This document shows, one piece after another, positions 7,054 through 15,056 of a stretch of DNA of 35,421 nt. Where the stretch lies: NCBI RefSeq assembly GCF_009712035.1, contig NZ_VILB01000021.1:1-35421 (forward strand), in the 5' to 3' direction. Below the pieces are notes generated by a model that was not told the origin of the DNA, searched no databases, and worked only from the letters and a program-made list of their open reading frames with translations. The stretch comes from Anabaena sp. UHCC 0187. GTDB taxonomy: Bacteria; Cyanobacteriota; Cyanobacteriia; Cyanobacteriales; Nostocaceae. A program made the position numbers and the translations under genes. The stretch's first letter is position 1, and every line of letters begins with the position of its first letter.

Positions 7054-7519
7054 ATCTTTTCTAGTTTACAGGGAATCATGGGCAGTTTGAAATCCCTCCA
7101 GTTGTCAGCATAAAATCTAATCCTGATTAAGCATGATTTGAAATTAGATAATTTATTTAAGCTTTTATAATTATATATCTATTCATGTAAATACCCATGA
7201 GGGAAATTTCCAGTCTCATAACCCAAAGTTTGTGAAAAGGAAACAAAATACTTGTTCTGTCGGTTTTAGATACTTTTATTATTGCTGGCTGAGAATAATG
7301 AATAGAAGATAGCAGAAATTTTCTATTTGGTGAACATGATTTAGCCGATTTGGCGTGTATTTTTCGGCAATATTTAGTTCTAAATTCGGTAATTAAGTTG
7401 GCACAAATTAGCCATGACAAAGATCAGAATAAACATATACGGTATTAACTGAAGCCGAATCTAAAAGTATAAAATTAATCCACAGTTAGTAATAATTCAC
7501 AATTAGAGGAATTTAAGTC
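7054..7519. other. Intergenic region: divergent promoters of the J-domain gene and precursor peptide 1
   Basis: 466 bp without a convincing gene. An 87-codon minus-strand reading frame here has no SD site and composition like the surrounding AT-rich DNA. The right half holds the first copy of the 63-bp element (7341-7403). TATTAAC at 7443-7449 lies 40 nt after that element; the second copy has the same word at the same offset, so it is a candidate -10 or spacer feature. Confidence 0.6.
7341..7403 (+). promoter_or_regulatory. 63-bp duplicated upstream element, copy 1
   Basis: This 63-bp stretch is 58/63 identical to 8028-8090 without gaps. It ends 116 nt before the start codon of precursor peptide 1. 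Inside it, GCCGA (7344-7348) and TCGGC (7364-7368) form an inverted repeat with a 15-bp spacer, unchanged in copy 2. Position and conservation suggest a shared operator or promoter for the two precursor genes, perhaps the target of the response regulator at 13298. That assignment is inference. Confidence 0.7.
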
Positions 7520-7744
7520 ATGTCTAATCTATTGTTTACAGTAGTACCTATTGAGCAGCAAGAAACCATAATTGGTGGCAGAAATATCAAAGCTAGAGCT
7601 AATAATGTTAATGATATTCAAGTTAAAGGAAATAATAATGTTGTTGTAGTTGTTAATAATATAACAATCATAAATATCATAATTAATGTCATTATCTGCT
7701 CATGCGGTGGAGGCAGAAAACACCGTTCTCGCAGATTTTCGTGA
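7520..7744 (+). CDS. Double-glycine-leader bacteriocin-type precursor peptide 1
   Basis: 74 aa. Residues 1-20 are a leader ending in a Gly-Gly pair (EQQETIIGG), nearly the same as that of the peptide at 8209; export by a C39-peptidase ABC transporter would cut after G20. The predicted core (21-74) is unusual: a basic/polar start, an Asn-rich turn (GNNN, 37-40), a very hydrophobic Val/Ile stretch with interspersed Asn (41-59), then C60-S-C62-GGG and a basic tail (RKHRSRRFS). It resembles the short-leader bacteriocin precursors that Nostocales encode next to C39 exporters (annotated in some databases as CTB family bacteriocin). SD-like GAGGA at 7506-7510 is 9 nt before the ATG. Activity and any Cys modification are unknown. 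Confidence 0.82.
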   Translation: MSNLLFTVVPIEQQETIIGGRNIKARANNVNDIQVKGNNNVVVVVNNITIINIIINVIICSCGGGRKHRSRRFS

Positions 7745-7784
7745 GCGCAGATTATCTGAACGGCTTAATTATTTGATTCTGCGG

Positions 7785-7813
7785 GTAGGGGTTTAGCAGT
7801 GCTAAACCCCTAC
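7785..7813 (+). terminator. Palindromic hairpin after precursor peptide 1
   Basis: GTAGGGGTTTAG (7785-7796), a 5-nt loop and CTAAACCCCTAC (7802-7813) form a 12-bp perfect stem 41 nt after the peptide 1 stop, followed by a T-rich run at about 7820-7827. It probably ends the peptide 1 transcript. Palindromes with this wording also occur as dispersed cyanobacterial repeats. Confidence 0.65.
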
Positions 7814-7900
7814 TAATCTAGATTTTTCGTAATTTTACAAAAGTCCATCTCCCAACCGTGTTGAGTATATTTAGTTATCTTGAGATGACTTGAGCTATGA

Positions 7901-7922
7901 GCCTGGAAATGAATTTCCAGGC
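7901..7922. repeat. Small palindrome GCCTGGAAA / TTTCCAGGC
   Basis: A perfect 9-bp stem (7901-7909 with 7914-7922) around a 4-nt loop, about 105 bp upstream of the second 63-bp element. No U tract follows. It may be a protein-binding palindrome or a dispersed repeat; nothing in the sequence decides which. Confidence 0.5.
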
Positions 7923-8027
7923 AAGATATAGGTTTTACATTAAATAGATACTTATTATATGCTGCACGCCTATCTGACATTATATAGAAATATATATAGC
8001 TAAGATTGGAAATTTTGTCAAATGAAT

Positions 8028-8090
8028 TTAGCCGAGTTGGCGTGTATTTTTCGGCAATATCTAGTTCTAAATTTGGTAATGAAGTTTGCA
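8028..8090 (+). promoter_or_regulatory. 63-bp duplicated upstream element, copy 2
   Basis: Partner of 7341-7403, five mismatches in 63. The GCCGA (8031-8035) and TCGGC (8051-8055) arms keep the 15-bp spacing. It ends 118 nt before the start codon of precursor peptide 2, within 2 nt of the distance seen at peptide 1, while most of the DNA between element and gene has diverged. Conservation of element and distance points to a regulatory role. Confidence 0.7.
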
Positions 8091-8193
8091 GAAAATGAGA
8101 ATGAATTATCTAGTGACTTCTCGATATTCTATTAACAAGCGAGGGGGGAAACGGCAACCGAGCAGTAAACAACCCCAAGCAATAATACAAATC

Positions 8194-8200
8194 AAGGAGA
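8194..8200 (+). promoter_or_regulatory. Ribosome binding site that fixes the peptide 2 start
   Basis: AAGGAGA lies 8 nt before the ATG at 8209 and is the strongest SD in this region. It sets the start of the second precursor there rather than at the upstream in-frame TTG (8086) or ATGs near 8095-8101. The predicted protein then lines up with the first precursor from its first residue (MSNL). Confidence 0.8.
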
Positions 8201-8208
8201 ATTCAGTC

Positions 8209-8421
8209 ATGTCTAATTTATTTACCGCAGTATCTGTTGAGCAACAAGAAATCGTAGCTGGTGGTCGTCGTAATCGTCCTGCTCGTCCTATTGTAGTCGT
8301 GGAATCCCCCAAGATCACTAACATTTTCGCTCTACAGATAGGAGGCAATTTTGCTACTATTGGTGGACGCGGACGTGTTGATCAACTTCTTGGGCAAGAG
8401 CAAGAAATCAACGTAAGTTAA
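8209..8421 (+). CDS. Double-glycine-leader bacteriocin-type precursor peptide 2
   Basis: 70 aa. The leader (1-19) has the form MSNLFTAVSVEQQEIVAGG and matches peptide 1 at most positions, with the Gly-Gly cleavage site at 18-19. The predicted core (20-70) starts very basic (RRNRPARP), then a VVV-containing segment, a hydrophobic ITNIFALQIGGNFATIGG stretch with two internal GG pairs, and an acidic/Gln-rich tail. It has no Cys, unlike peptide 1, so disulfide or lanthionine bridging is impossible within it. The C39 exporter gene begins 273 bp downstream on the same strand. The pair looks like a two-peptide system or two independent products of one exporter; sequence cannot tell which. Function as a bacteriocin is inferred from leader plus context. 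Confidence 0.82.
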   Translation: MSNLFTAVSVEQQEIVAGGRRNRPARPIVVVESPKITNIFALQIGGNFATIGGRGRVDQLLGQEQEINVS

Positions 8422-8479
8422 TAGAAAGAAACGGTTTATAGAATTTTAATTCTTCCTGTTTCTGCTCATTACTAAAGTC

Positions 8480-8558
8480 AGTCAGCTATCAGCTAGAAAC
8501 AGAATAATAAAAGAAGTAAATTCTTTATTATTCTGCTACTGATTGCTGACTCTTTTTC
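8480..8558 (+). terminator. Long hairpin with T run between precursor 2 and the exporter
   Basis: CAGAATAATAAA (from 8500) pairs with TTTATTATTCTG (to 8535) around a short loop. The flanking AGTCAGCTATCAG (8480-8492) also pairs, imperfectly, with CTGATTGCTGACT (8539-8551). TCTTTTTC follows at 8551-8558. This can act as a terminator or attenuator that lowers exporter expression relative to the peptides. Its outer arms resemble dispersed cyanobacterial repeats, so it may be of mobile origin. Confidence 0.65.
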
Positions 8559-8694
8559 TAAATATCACGCCCTATTTACCAATTCATACAAGTAAGACTT
8601 TATCTAAATACTTTATATATTTCCACCATAAATCAAAAAAAAGCTAATTCCAGAAATATACCACCTAATTATTATTCTCCAGGGTGCTTTATCT

Positions 8695-10845
8695 ATGAAA
8701 TACCAGTTAGTTCAACAACATAGCGAAGAAGATTGTGGCGCAGCTTGCTTGGCTGCAATTGCTAAACATTACGGTCAAACTTTTACCCTTAACCGGGTGC
8801 GGGAAGCCGTAGGAACAGGGCAATTTGGAACTACTTTATTGGGATTAAAAAGAGGAGCAGAAATCCTAGGTTTTAAAGCAAATCCAGTCCAAAGTTCCCC
8901 AGAAATATTAGACAAAATCCATGAAGCACCCTTACCAGCAATCATTCATTGGCAAGGAAATCATTGGGTTGTTTTATATGGTAAAAAAGGTAAAAAATTT
9001 CTGATTGCAGATCCTGCGGTCGGAATGCGTTATCTTTCTAAACAAGATATAAAAGAAGCTTGGACAGATTGGTTATTATTATTAGTAGAACCAGATCCCA
9101 TCCGCTTTTTTGCTCAAAAGCAAGATAAAGTTGGTGGTTTTTGGCGTTTTTTTAAACGGGTCTGGATTTATCGTAGCATTTTATTTCAAGCATTACCTCT
9201 GAATTTAGTCTTAGGTTTATTGTCTTTAGCTTCTCCCTTTCTGCTGCAAATTCTCACCGATGATGTGTTAGTTAGAGGTGACACAAAATTACTAACTACA
9301 GTAGTAATTGCTGTAGTAGTCATGAATATGATTTCTCATAGCCTTTCATTTGTCCAGTCTAACTTAATTGCTCATTTTGCCCAACGAATGCAATTAGGTT
9401 TAGTTCTGGAATTTGGACGGCAAATTCTGCGTTTACCATTAACTTATTATGAAGCCCGTCGCAGTGGTGAAGTTATTAGTCGGTTGCAAGACATTGAGCA
9501 AATTAATCAATTAATTGCTCAAGTTGTTGTTGGTTTACCCAGTCAATTTTTCATTGCCATAATTTCCTTGGGTTTCATGTTTTTTTATAGCTGGAAGCTT
9601 ACCTTAGTAGCTTTATTAGTTTCTGTGGTCATGACCACATCTACTATTATTTTCCAGCCGACACTACAACAAAAAACCAACGAACTGTTAGTCACAGAAG
9701 CGGAAACCCAAGGGGTTTTAGTTGAAACCTTTAAAGGGGCATTAACTCTCAAAACCACCACATCAGGAAGACAATTTTGGGATGAATTACAAAATCGCTT
9801 TAATCGTCTGGCTGGACTGACATTTAGAACAATGCAAATTGGCATTATTAATAATACTTTTTCTGGCTTTATTTCTGGAATTGGTAGTGTAATTTTACTC
9901 TGGTTTGGTGGCTATTTAGTAATTAATCCGGCTGAAAATCTCAGCATTGGACAATTATTAGCATTTAACTCAATGACTGGGAATTTTCTCTCTTTAATTA
10001 GCACAGTTATTAATTTTGTTGATGAATTTACCCGTGCTAAAACTGCCACAAGAAGGTTAACAGAAGTTATTGATGCCACTCCAGAAGAGGAAGATGATGG
10101 TAAAAAGCCTTTTGCTAAAATCTCTGGTAATGATGACATTATTTGTACAAATTTGACCTTTCATTATCCTGGTCGCATTGACTTATTAGATGATTTTTCT
10201 TTAACAATTCCTGGGGGTAAAAATATTGCTCTTATTGGTAAATCAGGATGTGGTAAAAGCACCTTAGCTAAATTAATTTCTGGTTTATATCAACTGCAAT
10301 CTGGGAATATCCGCATTGGACTTTATAACCTCCAAGACCTTTCCTTAGAATGTCTCCGTCAACAGGTCATACTTGTTCCCCAAGATGCCCATTTTTGGAA
10401 TCGTTCCATTGTCGAAAACTTTCGATTAGGATCACCCTATATTAGCTTTGAGCAGATTGTTCAAGCTTGCCAAGTTACTGGTGCTGATGAATTTATTAGT
10501 AAGTTACCTCAGACATATCAAACTATCTTGGGTGAATTTGGTGCTAATATTTCCGGTGGACAAAAGCAAAGATTAGCACTAGCTAGAGCCATTGTTACAG
10601 ACCCAGCAATCCTGATTTTAGATGAATCTACTGGTGGACTTGATCCAGTTAGTGAAGCGCAAGTTTTAGACCAATTATTTCAACATCGTCAAGGGAAAAC
10701 AACGATTTTAATTACTCACCGACCGAAAGTAATTAATCGTGCTGATTGGATTGTTTTGATAGATCAGGGTAAGTTGAAATTAGAAGGTTCTCTAGAGGAT
10801 TTACGCACTAAACCAGGAGAACATTTAGATTTTTTAATTCCTTAG
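8695..10845 (+). CDS. Peptidase-containing ABC exporter (C39 peptidase, bacteriocin type)
   Basis: 716 aa, one full PCAT chain. Residues 1-130 are a C39 cysteine peptidase: Q8 (oxyanion), C14 in the DCGAAC motif, H90 and D106, so all catalytic residues are present. About 155-440 is the exporter transmembrane domain with some six helices. About 478-716 is the ATPase: Walker A G515-KSGCGKS-T523, signature ISGGQKQR near 619, Walker B ILILDEST near 640, H-loop ITHRP near 680. Such proteins cut double-glycine leaders and export the core across the inner membrane, acting as dimers with an HlyD-type partner; that partner is the next gene, 24 nt away. The two upstream peptides have leaders of exactly this class and are its likely substrates. 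An SD is weak (AGGGTG near 8682). Confidence 0.94.
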   Translation: MKYQLVQQHSEEDCGAACLAAIAKHYGQTFTLNRVREAVGTGQFGTTLLGLKRGAEILGFKANPVQSSPEILDKIHEAPLPAIIHWQGNHWVVLYGKKGKKFLIADPAVGMRYLSKQDIKEAWTDWLLLLVEPDPIRFFAQKQDKVGGFWRFFKRVWIYRSILFQALPLNLVLGLLSLASPFLLQILTDDVLVRGDTKLLTTVVIAVVVMNMISHSLSFVQSNLIAHFAQRMQLGLVLEFGRQILRLPLTYYEARRSGEVISRLQDIEQINQLIAQVVVGLPSQFFIAIISLGFMFFYSWKLTLVALLVSVVMTTSTIIFQPTLQQKTNELLVTEAETQGVLVETFKGALTLKTTTSGRQFWDELQNRFNRLAGLTFRTMQIGIINNTFSGFISGIGSVILLWFGGYLVINPAENLSIGQLLAFNSMTGNFLSLISTVINFVDEFTRAKTATRRLTEVIDATPEEEDDGKKPFAKISGNDDIICTNLTFHYPGRIDLLDDFSLTIPGGKNIALIGKSGCGKSTLAKLISGLYQLQSGNIRIGLYNLQDLSLECLRQQVILVPQDAHFWNRSIVENFRLGSPYISFEQIVQACQVTGADEFISKLPQTYQTILGEFGANISGGQKQRLALARAIVTDPAILILDESTGGLDPVSEAQVLDQLFQHRQGKTTILITHRPKVINRADWIVLIDQGKLKLEGSLEDLRTKPGEHLDFLIP

Positions 10846-10869
10846 TGATCATTCATTAATCAGATAATT

Positions 10870-12270
10870 ATGCTTTACACTCATCCTCAAGAATTCAATT
10901 CTGTCATTGAAAAAGATAATTCACTTCCTCCTGTTAGTCGCTGGACATCCTTAGCAGGTGTATTTCTAATTGGGACTGTTATTGCTAGTATTTCTTTGTC
11001 CTCATGGGTGAAATACAATGTCACAGTTAAAGCTGCTGCTATAGTTCGTCCCATAGGTGAAACTCGTGTAGTCCAATCAAAGATAGAAGGGACTATTAAA
11101 AATATCTTAGTCAAAGAAAATCAAATTGTTAAGCAAGGGGAGATCATCGCCATTTTAGATACTGAGCAATTACTCATTAAAAAAAGCCAATTAGAGGAAA
11201 ATATTAAACAAAGTAGATTGCAAATAGTTCAAATTTATGCTCAAAACCGGACGTTAAATCATCAAATTATGTCTGAAAAAATAGCTATAGAAAAGATTGT
11301 TAATTCTGCTAAAGAGGATTTATTAAGAAATCAAAGAGAATATGAAGAGCGAAAAATTAATACTGATACTGAATTAATAGCAGCGGAGGTAAATATCCAA
11401 AAAGAATTAGTAGGTTTACAAAAAGCTGAAGCTGATTTAGAATTTGCAAAATTAGATCGGGATCGTTATCAGCAACTATCACAAGTTGGCGCAGTTGGCA
11501 AGCGAGAATTTCAGGAAAAGGAGTTAGTTGTTAAACAGACAAACCTCGCTCTGCAATCTACAAAAAAAGCTGTTGATATCGCTAAAATAAAAATTAAATC
11601 CACTAAAGCTGCGGTTAATCCAACTACAGCTATGGTGAAAATGGCAGAAGAACGTATTGCTCAAGAAATTGCTAAAGGTGAAGCCAATATAGCTGTTTTA
11701 AATAAAGAAAGAGAAGGCTTAATTCAACGATTAGTTGAAATCCAAACCCAAATTAAACAATCACAAAAAGAACTTCAACAACTAGAAAATCAGCGCAAAA
11801 GTAGTATTATTCTGGCTACGAGTAATGGGATTATTTTCAAGCTCAATTTACGAAATTCTGGTCAAGTTGTCCGCGCTGGTGAATCTATTGCTGAAGTTGT
11901 CCCTGATAACGCTTCCTTAGTAATTAAAGCCATGATTCCCACTGCGGAAATTAATAAAGCTGCTATTGGTCAAAAAGTCCAACTTCGTGTTGATGCTTGT
12001 CCCTATCCTGATTATGGAACTGCTAAGGGGATTGTGAAAACCATTAGTCCAGATGCAATGACATCTCAAAATAAAGATACAACTACTACAATTTCTCCTG
12101 GTATTAGCTACTTTGAAGCCACAATTCAACCCGAAAGCCATTCATTTGGTAATAATGGCCGTCAGTGTGTTCTTCAATCAGGGATGAATGCTACAGCCGA
12201 AATTATTTCCAGAGAAGAAACAGCATTAAAATTTATGTTGAGAAAAGCTAGATTAATTTCTGATTTATGA
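10870..12270 (+). CDS. HlyD-family periplasmic adaptor of the peptide exporter
   Basis: 466 aa. There is a short cytoplasmic N-terminus, one transmembrane helix at about 27-50, and a lipoyl-type half-motif at about 60-95 (GETRVVQSKIEGTIKN then VKQGEIIAILDTEQ). A long Lys/Glu/Gln-rich coiled coil spans about 100-320. The second lipoyl half follows (SNGIIFKLNLRNSGQVVRAG), then a beta-barrel domain and a C-terminal segment. Membrane-fusion proteins of this kind bridge an inner-membrane ABC exporter to an outer-membrane TolC-like channel. No TolC homologue is in the window, so the channel is presumably encoded elsewhere. It follows the exporter by 24 nt and is surely co-transcribed with it. Length is typical for HlyD/MFP proteins. 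Confidence 0.92.
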   Translation: MLYTHPQEFNSVIEKDNSLPPVSRWTSLAGVFLIGTVIASISLSSWVKYNVTVKAAAIVRPIGETRVVQSKIEGTIKNILVKENQIVKQGEIIAILDTEQLLIKKSQLEENIKQSRLQIVQIYAQNRTLNHQIMSEKIAIEKIVNSAKEDLLRNQREYEERKINTDTELIAAEVNIQKELVGLQKAEADLEFAKLDRDRYQQLSQVGAVGKREFQEKELVVKQTNLALQSTKKAVDIAKIKIKSTKAAVNPTTAMVKMAEERIAQEIAKGEANIAVLNKEREGLIQRLVEIQTQIKQSQKELQQLENQRKSSIILATSNGIIFKLNLRNSGQVVRAGESIAEVVPDNASLVIKAMIPTAEINKAAIGQKVQLRVDACPYPDYGTAKGIVKTISPDAMTSQNKDTTTTISPGISYFEATIQPESHSFGNNGRQCVLQSGMNATAEIISREETALKFMLRKARLISDL

Positions 12271-12389: not shown

Positions 12390-13037
12390 ATGACATCTGA
12401 GCAAAGAATTCAGCAAGCATTACAGTGGTGGTTTTATAGAGAATTCCTGAAACTATTTCTGGAATCCGAAAAAATTCGTGATGATTTATTACAAGAATCT
12501 TTTACAATTCGGCGTAATCTAGATTTATTGGCTATAGATAATCAGACTTTATCAGTTACAAATATTCAAGCATATATCGAAAAAATTGATAATTTTCATC
12601 ACTCTTTAGTTCAATTAAGTGATCGATTATGTCTCACATCTATTCAAGATAGTTTACCTTTATCTATTGAGTATTTATTAGAATCTTGGATAGACTCCCA
12701 TCAACATCTAGATTTTCAGCTTAAAATGCCAGTTTACTGGCGAACTGAAGCCCCTGAACGTAATTGGATAATTATTAGAGTCTTAGAAGAATTACTCAGA
12801 ATAACTTTGCCAGAAACAGAGATTTTATTACCTATTTATATTCATATAACTCTTAAGCCCATAGGAAGTATAGGGTTGTTGTCTGTAAAAATTTATTATC
12901 CTGATATATCTACTCTAATTTTTTATTCTCATGTGCCAGAATTAGAACATCTTTATCATAGCTTTAATTTCTTAATATCAGGTAAATGCTGTTACTTTAA
13001 CAAAAACCTCATGTCAGTTTGGCACTTTTATTGGTAA
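12390..13037 (+). CDS. Degenerate histidine-kinase-like protein
   Basis: 215 aa, no transmembrane segment. The layout resembles the core of a NarX/HisKA_3-type kinase. A helix KIRDDLLQESFTIRR (28-42) stands where the phosphoacceptor helix should be, but the acceptor His is replaced (L34 or nearby). A second helix (about 60-100) follows, then VLEELLRI (131-138) where an N-box (ExxxN) would be, without the Asn. No DxGxG box is seen. So it probably neither binds ATP in the usual way nor autophosphorylates; it may be a pseudokinase partner of the regulator at 13298 or the kinase at 14163. The assignment rests on local pattern and on lying directly before a regulator/kinase pair, so treat it as tentative. 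It is unusually rich in Ile, Leu and Tyr. Confidence 0.55.
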   Translation: MTSEQRIQQALQWWFYREFLKLFLESEKIRDDLLQESFTIRRNLDLLAIDNQTLSVTNIQAYIEKIDNFHHSLVQLSDRLCLTSIQDSLPLSIEYLLESWIDSHQHLDFQLKMPVYWRTEAPERNWIIIRVLEELLRITLPETEILLPIYIHITLKPIGSIGLLSVKIYYPDISTLIFYSHVPELEHLYHSFNFLISGKCCYFNKNLMSVWHFYW

Positions 13038-13297: not shown

Positions 13298-13975
13298 ATG
13301 CAACAAGTTTTATCAGAAAAATCATTTTTAAAATTCATGGTAATTGATGACCACGAATCAGTTTTAAACGGAACAGTAGAAATATTAAGAAAAAACTATC
13401 CTAGTGCTGAATTTAATATTGCTACAAATGCTAGTCATGCTTTTGAGCAAGTTATTAGCTATCAACCTGATCTATTAATTATGGATCTTTCTATACCAGA
13501 AAAACTGGAAATGAAAGCGCGAGTTGACACGGGTATTCAACTTATTAAGAATTTGATAGAAACTTATTCCCATTTGAATATTGTTATTCAAAGCGCTCAT
13601 GTGAAAACATTAGTAAGGATTCGTCCCTATATTGATAATCATAAAGGAGGCTTTACTGTCGCTGATAAAAGTCTTTCTACCCAAGAAATGTTAACTAGAG
13701 TTGACTGGGCATTACAGGGATTAACTCACACCAAAGATATTAAAGGAATTCACTCAGGTTTAGAAGTTAAACCAGAGTGGTTGAAAGTCCTAAATTTAGC
13801 CTTTGAAGCCGGATTACAAGATAAAAAAATTGCTGAAAATATGTGCATATCTGAACGCATGGTGCGTCATTATTGGACTAAGTTGCAAGACGCTTTAAAT
13901 ATTTACCCAGAAGAAGGTAAAAACATCCGCATTCAAACGGAAATCAAAGCTAGAATTGCCGGATTAATTGATTAA
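13298..13975 (+). CDS. Response regulator, NarL/LuxR type
   Basis: 225 aa. The receiver domain (about 10-140) has the acidic pair D17/D18, phosphoacceptor D63 (LLIMDLSIPE), S99 at the switch position and K124, so it is probably phosphorylated. An insertion (KLEMKARVD, 69-77) lengthens the loop after the phospho-site compared with typical NarL receivers. The C-terminal helix-turn-helix (about 160-225) matches the LuxR type: GLQDKKIAENMCISERMVRHYWTKL, with RIQTEIKARIAGLI at the end as in cyanobacterial members. It should control transcription in response to a kinase, most simply the one encoded next. A reasonable target is the duplicated 63-bp element upstream of the two precursor genes, but nothing in the sequence proves it. 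Confidence 0.88.
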   Translation: MQQVLSEKSFLKFMVIDDHESVLNGTVEILRKNYPSAEFNIATNASHAFEQVISYQPDLLIMDLSIPEKLEMKARVDTGIQLIKNLIETYSHLNIVIQSAHVKTLVRIRPYIDNHKGGFTVADKSLSTQEMLTRVDWALQGLTHTKDIKGIHSGLEVKPEWLKVLNLAFEAGLQDKKIAENMCISERMVRHYWTKLQDALNIYPEEGKNIRIQTEIKARIAGLID

Positions 13976-14162: not shown

Positions 14163-15056
14163 ATGCAAACTCAATTTTGGAAAAAACTGCAAGCAGAAAT
14201 TTATTTTGGTTCTGGAGAAAAGTTATCAGAAAATATCATGACTATTTTTAGTCTAGTCTTGATTAGTCATTTTTTGTTGACTTGGGTGTGGTCAGTTTCT
14301 ATATTTCCAGCAATTTTAATTGTCGTTATAAATTGCATCAGTCTCATCGTCTTATATCAATATAACCAAACAATTAAATCTGGGATTCAAGCTCGCCGAA
14401 CCATGATTGAAACTACATTTGAAACAATTCATAATGGGCCATTACAACATCTGGCTAAAGTTTTAAAGCTAGTGAAAGGGCAAGAATTACCAATTAATAT
14501 TTTGCTGCCTGTAATAGAAAAAGAACTTGAAGAATTAAACCAAGAATTACGAGGAATGTACGAATTCTGGCAACAAGAAACTCTTAATCAAGATACTAGC
14601 CTTTATCTAGGAAATAATGTAGTCATAGATTTGCGAAACCCTGTCCATGAGATTCTCTATCAAGTTTATAGCTACACCTTAGAACGAGATTTACCATGCT
14701 TTAAAACCCTGAAACTAAAAATTCATAACTTTGAACCTATAGATGAAAGCAATTTGAGTATTGAAAATAAGCGAGGACTTTGCCGATTTTTAGAAGAAGC
14801 CTTATGTAATGTTGGTAAACACGCCATAGGCATCACCCGTCTACAAGTTACCTATTCAGCATTTGCAGGACATTACACTTTGAGCATTCTCGATAATGGG
14901 TTAGGAATTCACTCATCAAAAGAAGGTTGGGGAACAAAACAATTTAAAAATTTAGCCCAACAAATTAAAGGTAAATTTAGGCGAGTTTCCCTTTATCCTC
15001 AAGGGACTCTTTGTGAGTTATCTTGGCGGTTATCAACTTCTTTTTGGTGGCAATAA
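14163..15056 (+). CDS. Two-TM sensor histidine kinase
   Basis: 297 aa. Two adjacent hydrophobic helices (about 25-45 and 48-66) anchor it in the membrane with almost no periplasmic loop, so it may sense the membrane or a partner rather than a periplasmic ligand. A dimerisation/phosphoacceptor helix follows with H90 in ETIHNGPLQH. The ATPase domain has an N-box E212-ALCN-V and G1 box D244-NGLG248, with a later GWGTKQFKNLA segment equivalent to the G2 region. Key residues are intact, in contrast with the kinase-like protein at 12390. It is expected to phosphorylate the regulator at 13298, which lies 187 nt upstream with a long inverted repeat between them. It closes the bacteriocin-type cassette. 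Confidence 0.85.
   Translation: MQTQFWKKLQAEIYFGSGEKLSENIMTIFSLVLISHFLLTWVWSVSIFPAILIVVINCISLIVLYQYNQTIKSGIQARRTMIETTFETIHNGPLQHLAKVLKLVKGQELPINILLPVIEKELEELNQELRGMYEFWQQETLNQDTSLYLGNNVVIDLRNPVHEILYQVYSYTLERDLPCFKTLKLKIHNFEPIDESNLSIENKRGLCRFLEEALCNVGKHAIGITRLQVTYSAFAGHYTLSILDNGLGIHSSKEGWGTKQFKNLAQQIKGKFRRVSLYPQGTLCELSWRLSTSFWWQ

Follow-up and report, generated by a model that had tools for sequence, protein, structure and literature searches.

The closest described counterparts of the locus reported here are the group III bacteriocin gene clusters of cyanobacteria, of which Wang, Fewer and Sivonen (2011; PMC3140520) reported 19 in 12 of 58 genomes, Nodularia and Nostoc included; the passages of that paper on hand count 290 cyanobacterial ‘bacteriocin’ precursors and state that for most of these nothing at all is known of the product. 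Within the literature passages on hand, the only cyanobacterial double-glycine (GG) peptides with a demonstrated function are those of the EbfG set in Synechococcus elongatus PCC 7942, the documented precedent in these organisms, with a role in the matrix (PMC9981879). As to control, the parts on hand of two further papers describe two CTB clusters of Nodularia, of which only one is induced when the medium is poor in phosphate (PMC9846622), and a predicted LexA control of alr5147, an exporter of Nostoc PCC 7120 (PMC3091678). Here we analyse contig NZ_VILB01000021.1 of Anabaena sp. UHCC 0187, a complete contig of 35,421 bases (the window) in a genome of 5.1 Mb. It carries two precursor peptide genes, pep1 and pep2, with an exporter, an adaptor, a linked response regulator and a histidine kinase, and a 20-nt element, GGTAATKAAGTTKGCASAAA, lies about 133 nt ahead of each precursor ATG. 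Our best reading, which we hold to be probable though well short of certain, is that the locus is a secretion island under two-component control, whose peptides are rapidly replaced and apparently unmodified.

An earlier note on this DNA, made from the letters alone, had described a compact four-gene cassette ending at 12270. That cassette proved to be the front half of a module reaching 15056, with three further genes (at 12390, 13298 and 14163) on the same + strand beyond the adaptor. The features of the module are as follows.

7309..7519, + strand: upstream region of pep1; the 99 nt that open it (7309-7407) recur upstream of pep2
7388..7407, + strand: promoter/operator-like element, copy 1, GGTAATTAAGTTGGCACAAA, with 0 mismatches, 132 nt before the pep1 ATG
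7520..7744, + strand: pep1, precursor peptide 1, 74 aa, with a 20-aa GG leader and a 54-aa core
7996..8208, + strand: upstream region of pep2; over its last 200 nt, 11 named relatives share 84-97% identity with it
8075..8094, + strand: promoter/operator-like element, copy 2, GGTAATGAAGTTTGCAGAAA, a perfect copy upstream of pep2
8209..8421, + strand: pep2, precursor peptide 2, 70 aa from the ATG at 8209, with a 19-aa CTB-type GG leader and a 51-aa core
8695..10845, + strand: exporter, a C39 peptidase-containing ABC transporter (PCAT), 716 aa, short type, no N-terminal extension
10870..12270, + strand: HlyD-type periplasmic adaptor, adjoining the exporter
12390..13037, + strand: 215-aa protein with a histidine-kinase fold, from a fold match of its predicted model
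13298..13975, + strand: response regulator; receiver PF00072 above the cut-off, C-terminal helix–turn–helix PF00196 (GerE) below it
14163..15056, + strand: histidine kinase, 297 aa, with HNGPLQ and EEALCN motifs; HATPase_c below the cut-off

The same gene order (precursors, exporter, adaptor, 215-aa protein, then response regulator and histidine kinase) recurs in relatives ranging from Dolichospermum to Nostoc, Calothrix, Chlorogloeopsis and Fischerella. In two relatives (L037 and L058; loci are numbered with the prefix L) the 215-aa protein was not found between adaptor and regulator at the thresholds used, and the regulator and kinase are present, so that a loss or decay of this gene is possible. 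From 140 genomes of the family we took all regulator matches of at least 65% identity, 86 in number. Of these orthologues, 78 follow an exporter on its own strand, 3,054-5,313 nt downstream; for the remaining eight, no exporter match taken into the count shares both contig and strand. The Anabaena genome itself holds a single regulator match at E ≤1e-50, that of the window.

Both precursors are preceded by a direct repeat of 99 nt, 81% identical between its copies, and the most conserved part of this repeat is the 20-nt element. Only the two perfect copies, both ahead of precursors, stand out in the genome; a wider regulon was looked for with the element and rejected, the search giving 10 further sites, all with three mismatches, against 11 for the reversed control. 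We then sorted 56 loci (the window, a second cluster of the same genome and 54 exporter relatives) by their regulator, setting aside four with fragmentary or unrelated exporters. Where a regulator is seen (n = 24), the element stands before a precursor in 22 loci, L050 and L052 being those without it, at a distance of 131-136 nt in 15 and of 104-157 nt in all. Where no regulator match lies within at least about 6.5 kb downstream (n = 19), it stands before a precursor in one locus, L086, and two of the other 18 have an element-like site, with four mismatches, distant from any precursor. Loci with too little downstream DNA (n = 9) hold the element in two cases; the contig of L039 ends ahead of the regulator position. 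Shuffled loci gave six matches in 682,884 bases on one strand at four mismatches. At no more than one mismatch, 135 genomes contain 45 copies. Of these, 39, spread over 35 genomes, precede an exporter on its strand by 620-2,990 nt, and six lie elsewhere; the reversed control gave six copies. The regulator is linked to an exporter in 33 of these 35 genomes, and is on another contig in the other two (G027 and G055). A structured RNA upstream of the precursors was also considered and rejected: the consensus fold of 19 sequences reaches -4.27 kcal/mol with 11 pairs, and Rfam returned only two sub-threshold matches of microRNA type for this region.

The second line of evidence is the contrast between a constant upstream region and leader and a core that is replaced. 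The earlier note had named, as an observation that would refute it, peptide genes missing from relatives that keep the exporter. The outcome is mixed. The upstream-plus-leader stretch is present in all 16 genomes of the genus, the 15 others being 84-95% identical and one of them cut by a contig end; the cores fare differently, the pep2 core matching none of the 14 other cores of this slot that were compared, and full-length pep1 occurring in two other genomes of 145 searched, with weaker partial matches in six more. Across 105 pairs from 15 of the 16 genomes, the median nucleotide identity is 89% for 190 nt upstream (81-99%) and 89% for the leader (79-98%), compared with 46% for the core (36-63%), where shuffled cores give 45%, and 48% for the downstream sequence (43-75%); by blastp, the cores are related in eight of these pairs (E ≤0.01). 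The same picture was obtained with the 11 named relatives, which probably overlap the genus genomes in part (from L040, with three such precursors, the first was taken): in 10 of the 11, identity over the upstream 200 nt exceeds that of the exporter gene (82-90%). The DNA similarity to all 11 stops at 8264-8273, and the last base of the leader, in its GG codon, is 8265. That the similarity breaks off cleanly at the cut site suggests selection on the released part of the peptide and not on its making.

The regulator and the kinase have the make-up of a two-component pair, the former carrying the receiver Asp/Lys set (D17, D18, D63 and K124 are invariant in 11 of 11 aligned sequences) and the latter its His and ATP-site motifs. 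HNGPLQ and EEALCN are kept in 15 of 15 kinases, as are H90, N216, D244, G255 and G257, and the kinase profile matches chains of VraS (E 3.6e-4) and DosT (E 0.0024). In 15 loci outside the clade of the window (L041-L046, L049-L055, L061 and L081) the orthologous kinases have 627-656 aa, and both of the two scanned carry a CHASE2 domain (2.8e-66 and 9e-58). The kinases of the clade (L036, L037, L040, L047, L048, L058, L077, L083 and the window) have 297-329 aa, too short for CHASE2, and Pfam found none in the window kinase, the one clade member scanned; the five CHASE2 matches elsewhere in the genome are all on contigs other than that of the window. The 215-aa protein shows a histidine-kinase fold in its predicted model, with Foldseek TM-scores of 0.33-0.45 by query length in the matches shown. 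By eye, the alignments contain no canonical phosphoacceptor His, N box or G boxes, and the first helix of the window protein, at 3-50, is without His; it is probably a pseudokinase. Sequence homology to the linked kinase was tried and rejected with hhalign, and the likeness in fold comes from the predicted model.

The two GG precursors that the earlier note had read at 7520-7744 and 8209-8421 are confirmed as open reading frames (ORFs), with leaders of the type it described, MSNLLFTVVPIEQQETIIGG (20 aa) in pep1 and MSNLFTAVSVEQQEIVAGG (19 aa) in pep2, and with cores that, as it said, show no likeness to each other by eye. The pep1 core is hydrophobic and rich in Asn, with a basic C-terminus. 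The CTB bacteriocin model NF038167 is matched over positions 1-43 by pep2 (25.6 bits, E 1.1e-5) and 1-33 by pep1 (13.6 bits, E 0.058), which is to say over a CTB-type leader ending in GG, and neither score reaches the cut-off of 32. PHROGs held nothing matching pep1, pep2 or the 215-aa protein. A longer frame of 111 aa starting with TTG at 8086 is unlikely as the pep2 gene, because one-base gaps break it in three of the 15 aligned species. Two loci of one relative (L108 and L110 of G148) encode five different short GG peptides, several of them rich in Asn and Ile like pep1, in what looks like an expanded array.

Relatives of the module often have one more GG peptide, whose core is conserved and whose C-terminus is often basic; it stands ahead of the exporter gene in 19 of the 24 loci with a linked regulator and also in L039 and L086, and adjoins the exporter of the second cluster of the Anabaena genome (profile search at E ≤1e-22; eight of the 22 loci are seeds of the profile or likely duplicates). 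Among the 24 loci this partner peptide was not found in the window, L083, L050, L051 and L055, nor was it found in L038, where the contig ends. Within the named set, pep1 matches occur only in the window, L083 and L038. Pep1 may stand in for the partner peptide, three cases being too few for proof.

The exporter comprises a C39 domain (PF03412, 6.1e-37) beginning at residue 2, a transmembrane domain and a nucleotide-binding domain, without a CAP_ED extension at the N-terminus, and matches the solved structure of PCAT1 (4ry2) over residues 2-703 and ComA chains over 8-708. The complete peptidase site claimed by the earlier note (Q8, C14, H90 and D106) is present by position, as are Walker A at 515, the signature at 619 and Walker B at 639. 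The note was also right about the HlyD adaptor at 10870-12270, which scores above the cut-off of PF13437 (and 165.4 bits against TIGR01843, under its cut-off of 208.65), and about the lack of a modification enzyme nearby: none was recognised by Pfam among the 27 window proteins scanned. The scan took in 20 of the 26 further ORFs of at least 90 aa, the other six and smaller frames lying outside it, and showed among these 20 no LanM, second ABC exporter without peptidase, SurA or S8 peptidase. The closest relatives of the exporter are in Dolichospermum, Cuspidothrix, Aphanizomenon and Anabaena strains, which we take to be a bloom-forming group. In L047, L048, L077 and L086 the peptidase and membrane parts are 79-82% identical to those of the window and the ATPase part 85-89%, compared with an even 86-92% along the exporter in the other seven relatives; it is possible that these four carry a second allele of the exporter front.

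The Anabaena genome contains five C39 matches. On contig C2, at 306-313 kb (L018), a second CTB-type cluster has its own exporter, 63% identical, and its own adaptor, with six NF038167 matches in one stretch, one of them above the cut-off; neither the element nor a regulator match was found in the stretch examined. Between pep1 and pep2 there are two ATG-started ORFs of at least 22 aa, at 8022-8135 (+) and 7813-7980 (-), which by eye we judged to be chance. A perfect 29-bp palindrome, GTAGGGGTTTAGCA-N-TGCTAAACCCCTAC, lies at 7785-7813 and recurs at 25 places in the genome with up to two mismatches, 15 of them perfect. At 7800, within this palindrome, the DNA starts to resemble that of Dolichospermum L036, which suggests that the palindrome marks an edge of recombination or insertion.

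The mechanism we propose is as follows. Phosphorylation of the regulator at 13298 would be set by the kinase at 14163, probably in concert with the degenerate 215-aa protein at 12390; the regulator would then act at the element before each precursor ATG and so switch the precursors on. The C39 domain would cut after GG, and the exporter and adaptor, with an outer-membrane factor that we assume to come from another locus, would release the cores, which are 54 and 51 residues long and probably carry no modification. The regulator would have to recognise the promoter and the peptidase the leader, which would keep both constant, and the core would be free for replacement, as has happened in nearly every species. 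The exchange of cores beside an upstream region and leader that stay fixed agrees best with peptides whose targets are variable partners, such as competing or kin cyanobacteria, in a bacteriocin-like or recognition role.

Several observations weigh against this account. A recognised precursor is present in only 10 of the 18 other loci without regulator, whose exporters are mostly more distant (53-66% identity; 73-75% in L056 and L057); the association between element and regulator is therefore partly one of shared ancestry. The element was, in addition, defined in part on loci that were later counted. At one mismatch the element occurs in only 39 of the 135 genomes, fewer than carry the regulator, from which it would seem to drift or differ in distant lineages. 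The linkage itself is incomplete, since 26 of the 104 exporter matches taken have no linked regulator, and exporters of this lineage thus also exist without it. L086, a close relative from Dolichospermum planctonicum NIES-80, has the element, precursors, exporter, adaptor and 215-aa protein, and no regulator or kinase match in 7 kb downstream of the exporter; its neighbourhood is interrupted after the 215-aa protein, by a break or a loss that might be used as a natural test of the regulator's role. The window kinase is without its likely sensor domain and scores 15.1 bits for HATPase_c, below the Pfam cut-off of 26.4. For the 215-aa protein, the TM-scores are low and hhalign to the kinase was negative, and His70 in helix 2 is invariant, leaving room for an atypical phosphotransfer role. 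Finally, no immunity gene was recognised between the precursors, which also speaks against a plain bacteriocin.

A more specific version of the proposal is tentative at most, and we regard it as rather unlikely in its full form. It would make the locus a polymorphic system with promoter and leader as a fixed socket, into which almost every species has put another core, swapped whole at the cut site. Control would lie with a three-protein kinase set that includes a pseudokinase, the peptides would serve strain or kin recognition or warfare among bloom cyanobacteria, and the planktonic clade would have lost the CHASE2 input.

To a similar, low degree we can entertain matrix or surface peptides like EbfG1-4, amyloid-prone blocks of aggregates or sheath whose assembly the kinase system would trigger, with pep1 or the partner peptide as a constant scaffold. 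The text on hand (PMC9981879) describes EbfG1-3 as amyloid-forming and EbfG4 as a protein of surface and matrix; the conserved partner ahead of most regulator-linked exporters would suit such a scaffold, and the pep1 core, rich in V, I and N, contains a hydrophobic stretch, IIINVII, with a similar one in both relatives. However, on an AGGRESCAN-type scale with approximate values, this stretch is not beyond composition, being reached by 152, 288 and 304 of 2000 shuffles of the three pep1 cores, and on that ground pep1 as an amyloid was rejected; pep2 and four other slot cores are reached by 727-1764 of 2000. A scaffold would, moreover, not need wholesale replacement of cores between species, and NF038167 has no match in S. 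elongatus, one of 14 control genomes.

Peptide-induced regulons of comparable layout are established in streptococci and lactobacilli, and precursors, exporter, kinase and regulator do stand here in one module with a common element before the precursors, as would be expected if the exported peptide were a pheromone sensed by the linked kinase and inducing its own genes in the manner of class II bacteriocins or ComC-ComD-ComE. This seems distinctly unlikely, because both kinases scanned from outside the clade carry CHASE2, a part that is gone within the clade although the precursors remain, and because the element stands out in its own genome only before the precursors. That the cassette is decaying, its cores drifting because they no longer matter once the CHASE2 sensor had gone from the clade and the partner peptide from this locus, would accord with the short kinases of the window and eight clade relatives, with the partner peptide not being found in the window, L038 and L083, and with a pep2 core without detected relatives, but is very improbable given intact frames in the window, key residues kept in peptidase, ATPase, kinase and regulator, and a non-coding upstream sequence that is 81-99% identical between 15 species, unlike drift.

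Returning to the two-component-controlled secretion island and to the systems already described, the precursors, exporter and adaptor match the gene content of the group III clusters, sharing with them a short-type C39 exporter, an HlyD protein, several small GG precursors and diverse cores. In the passages of that account on hand (PMC3140520) there is no mention of a kinase–regulator set, a shared promoter element or a constant leader and promoter against replaced cores, and the paper as a whole has the word ‘two-component’ 0 times. Among the open-licence papers found, as far as their passages on hand extend, we met no report of such a linked set or element; among the best 15 of 119 and 10 of 18 papers, titles and the starts of abstracts gave no CHASE2 or two-component link to such clusters, nor did two papers matched by locus tag in the parts on hand. 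Of two papers with both CHASE2 and bacteriocin, the one listed concerns myxobacteria, and PMC4558948 has ‘response regulator’ 0 times and ‘two-component’ twice, both in passages on terpene clusters. To the CTB family (NF038167) the two peptides are related through leaders that match its model, both proteins staying below 32 bits. The EbfG/PteB system of S. elongatus is alike in its small secreted GG-motif proteins, there with a function shown (PMC4997328, PMC9981879, in the parts on hand). It differs in that the CTB model, which the leaders of the window match, finds nothing there. Its exporter is, we presume, likewise of group III. With the class II bacteriocin and ComAB-ComCDE systems of Gram-positive bacteria the locus shares a GG peptide, a PCAT and a kinase and regulator within the module, and it is unlike them in the CHASE2-type kinase of its wider family, in its HlyD adaptor and in having no recognised immunity gene. 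Set beside these systems, the locus adds a kinase–regulator set and a 20-nt element that are tied, family-wide, to one exporter lineage; they offer a handle for switching the peptides on, and the job of the peptides thereby becomes testable.

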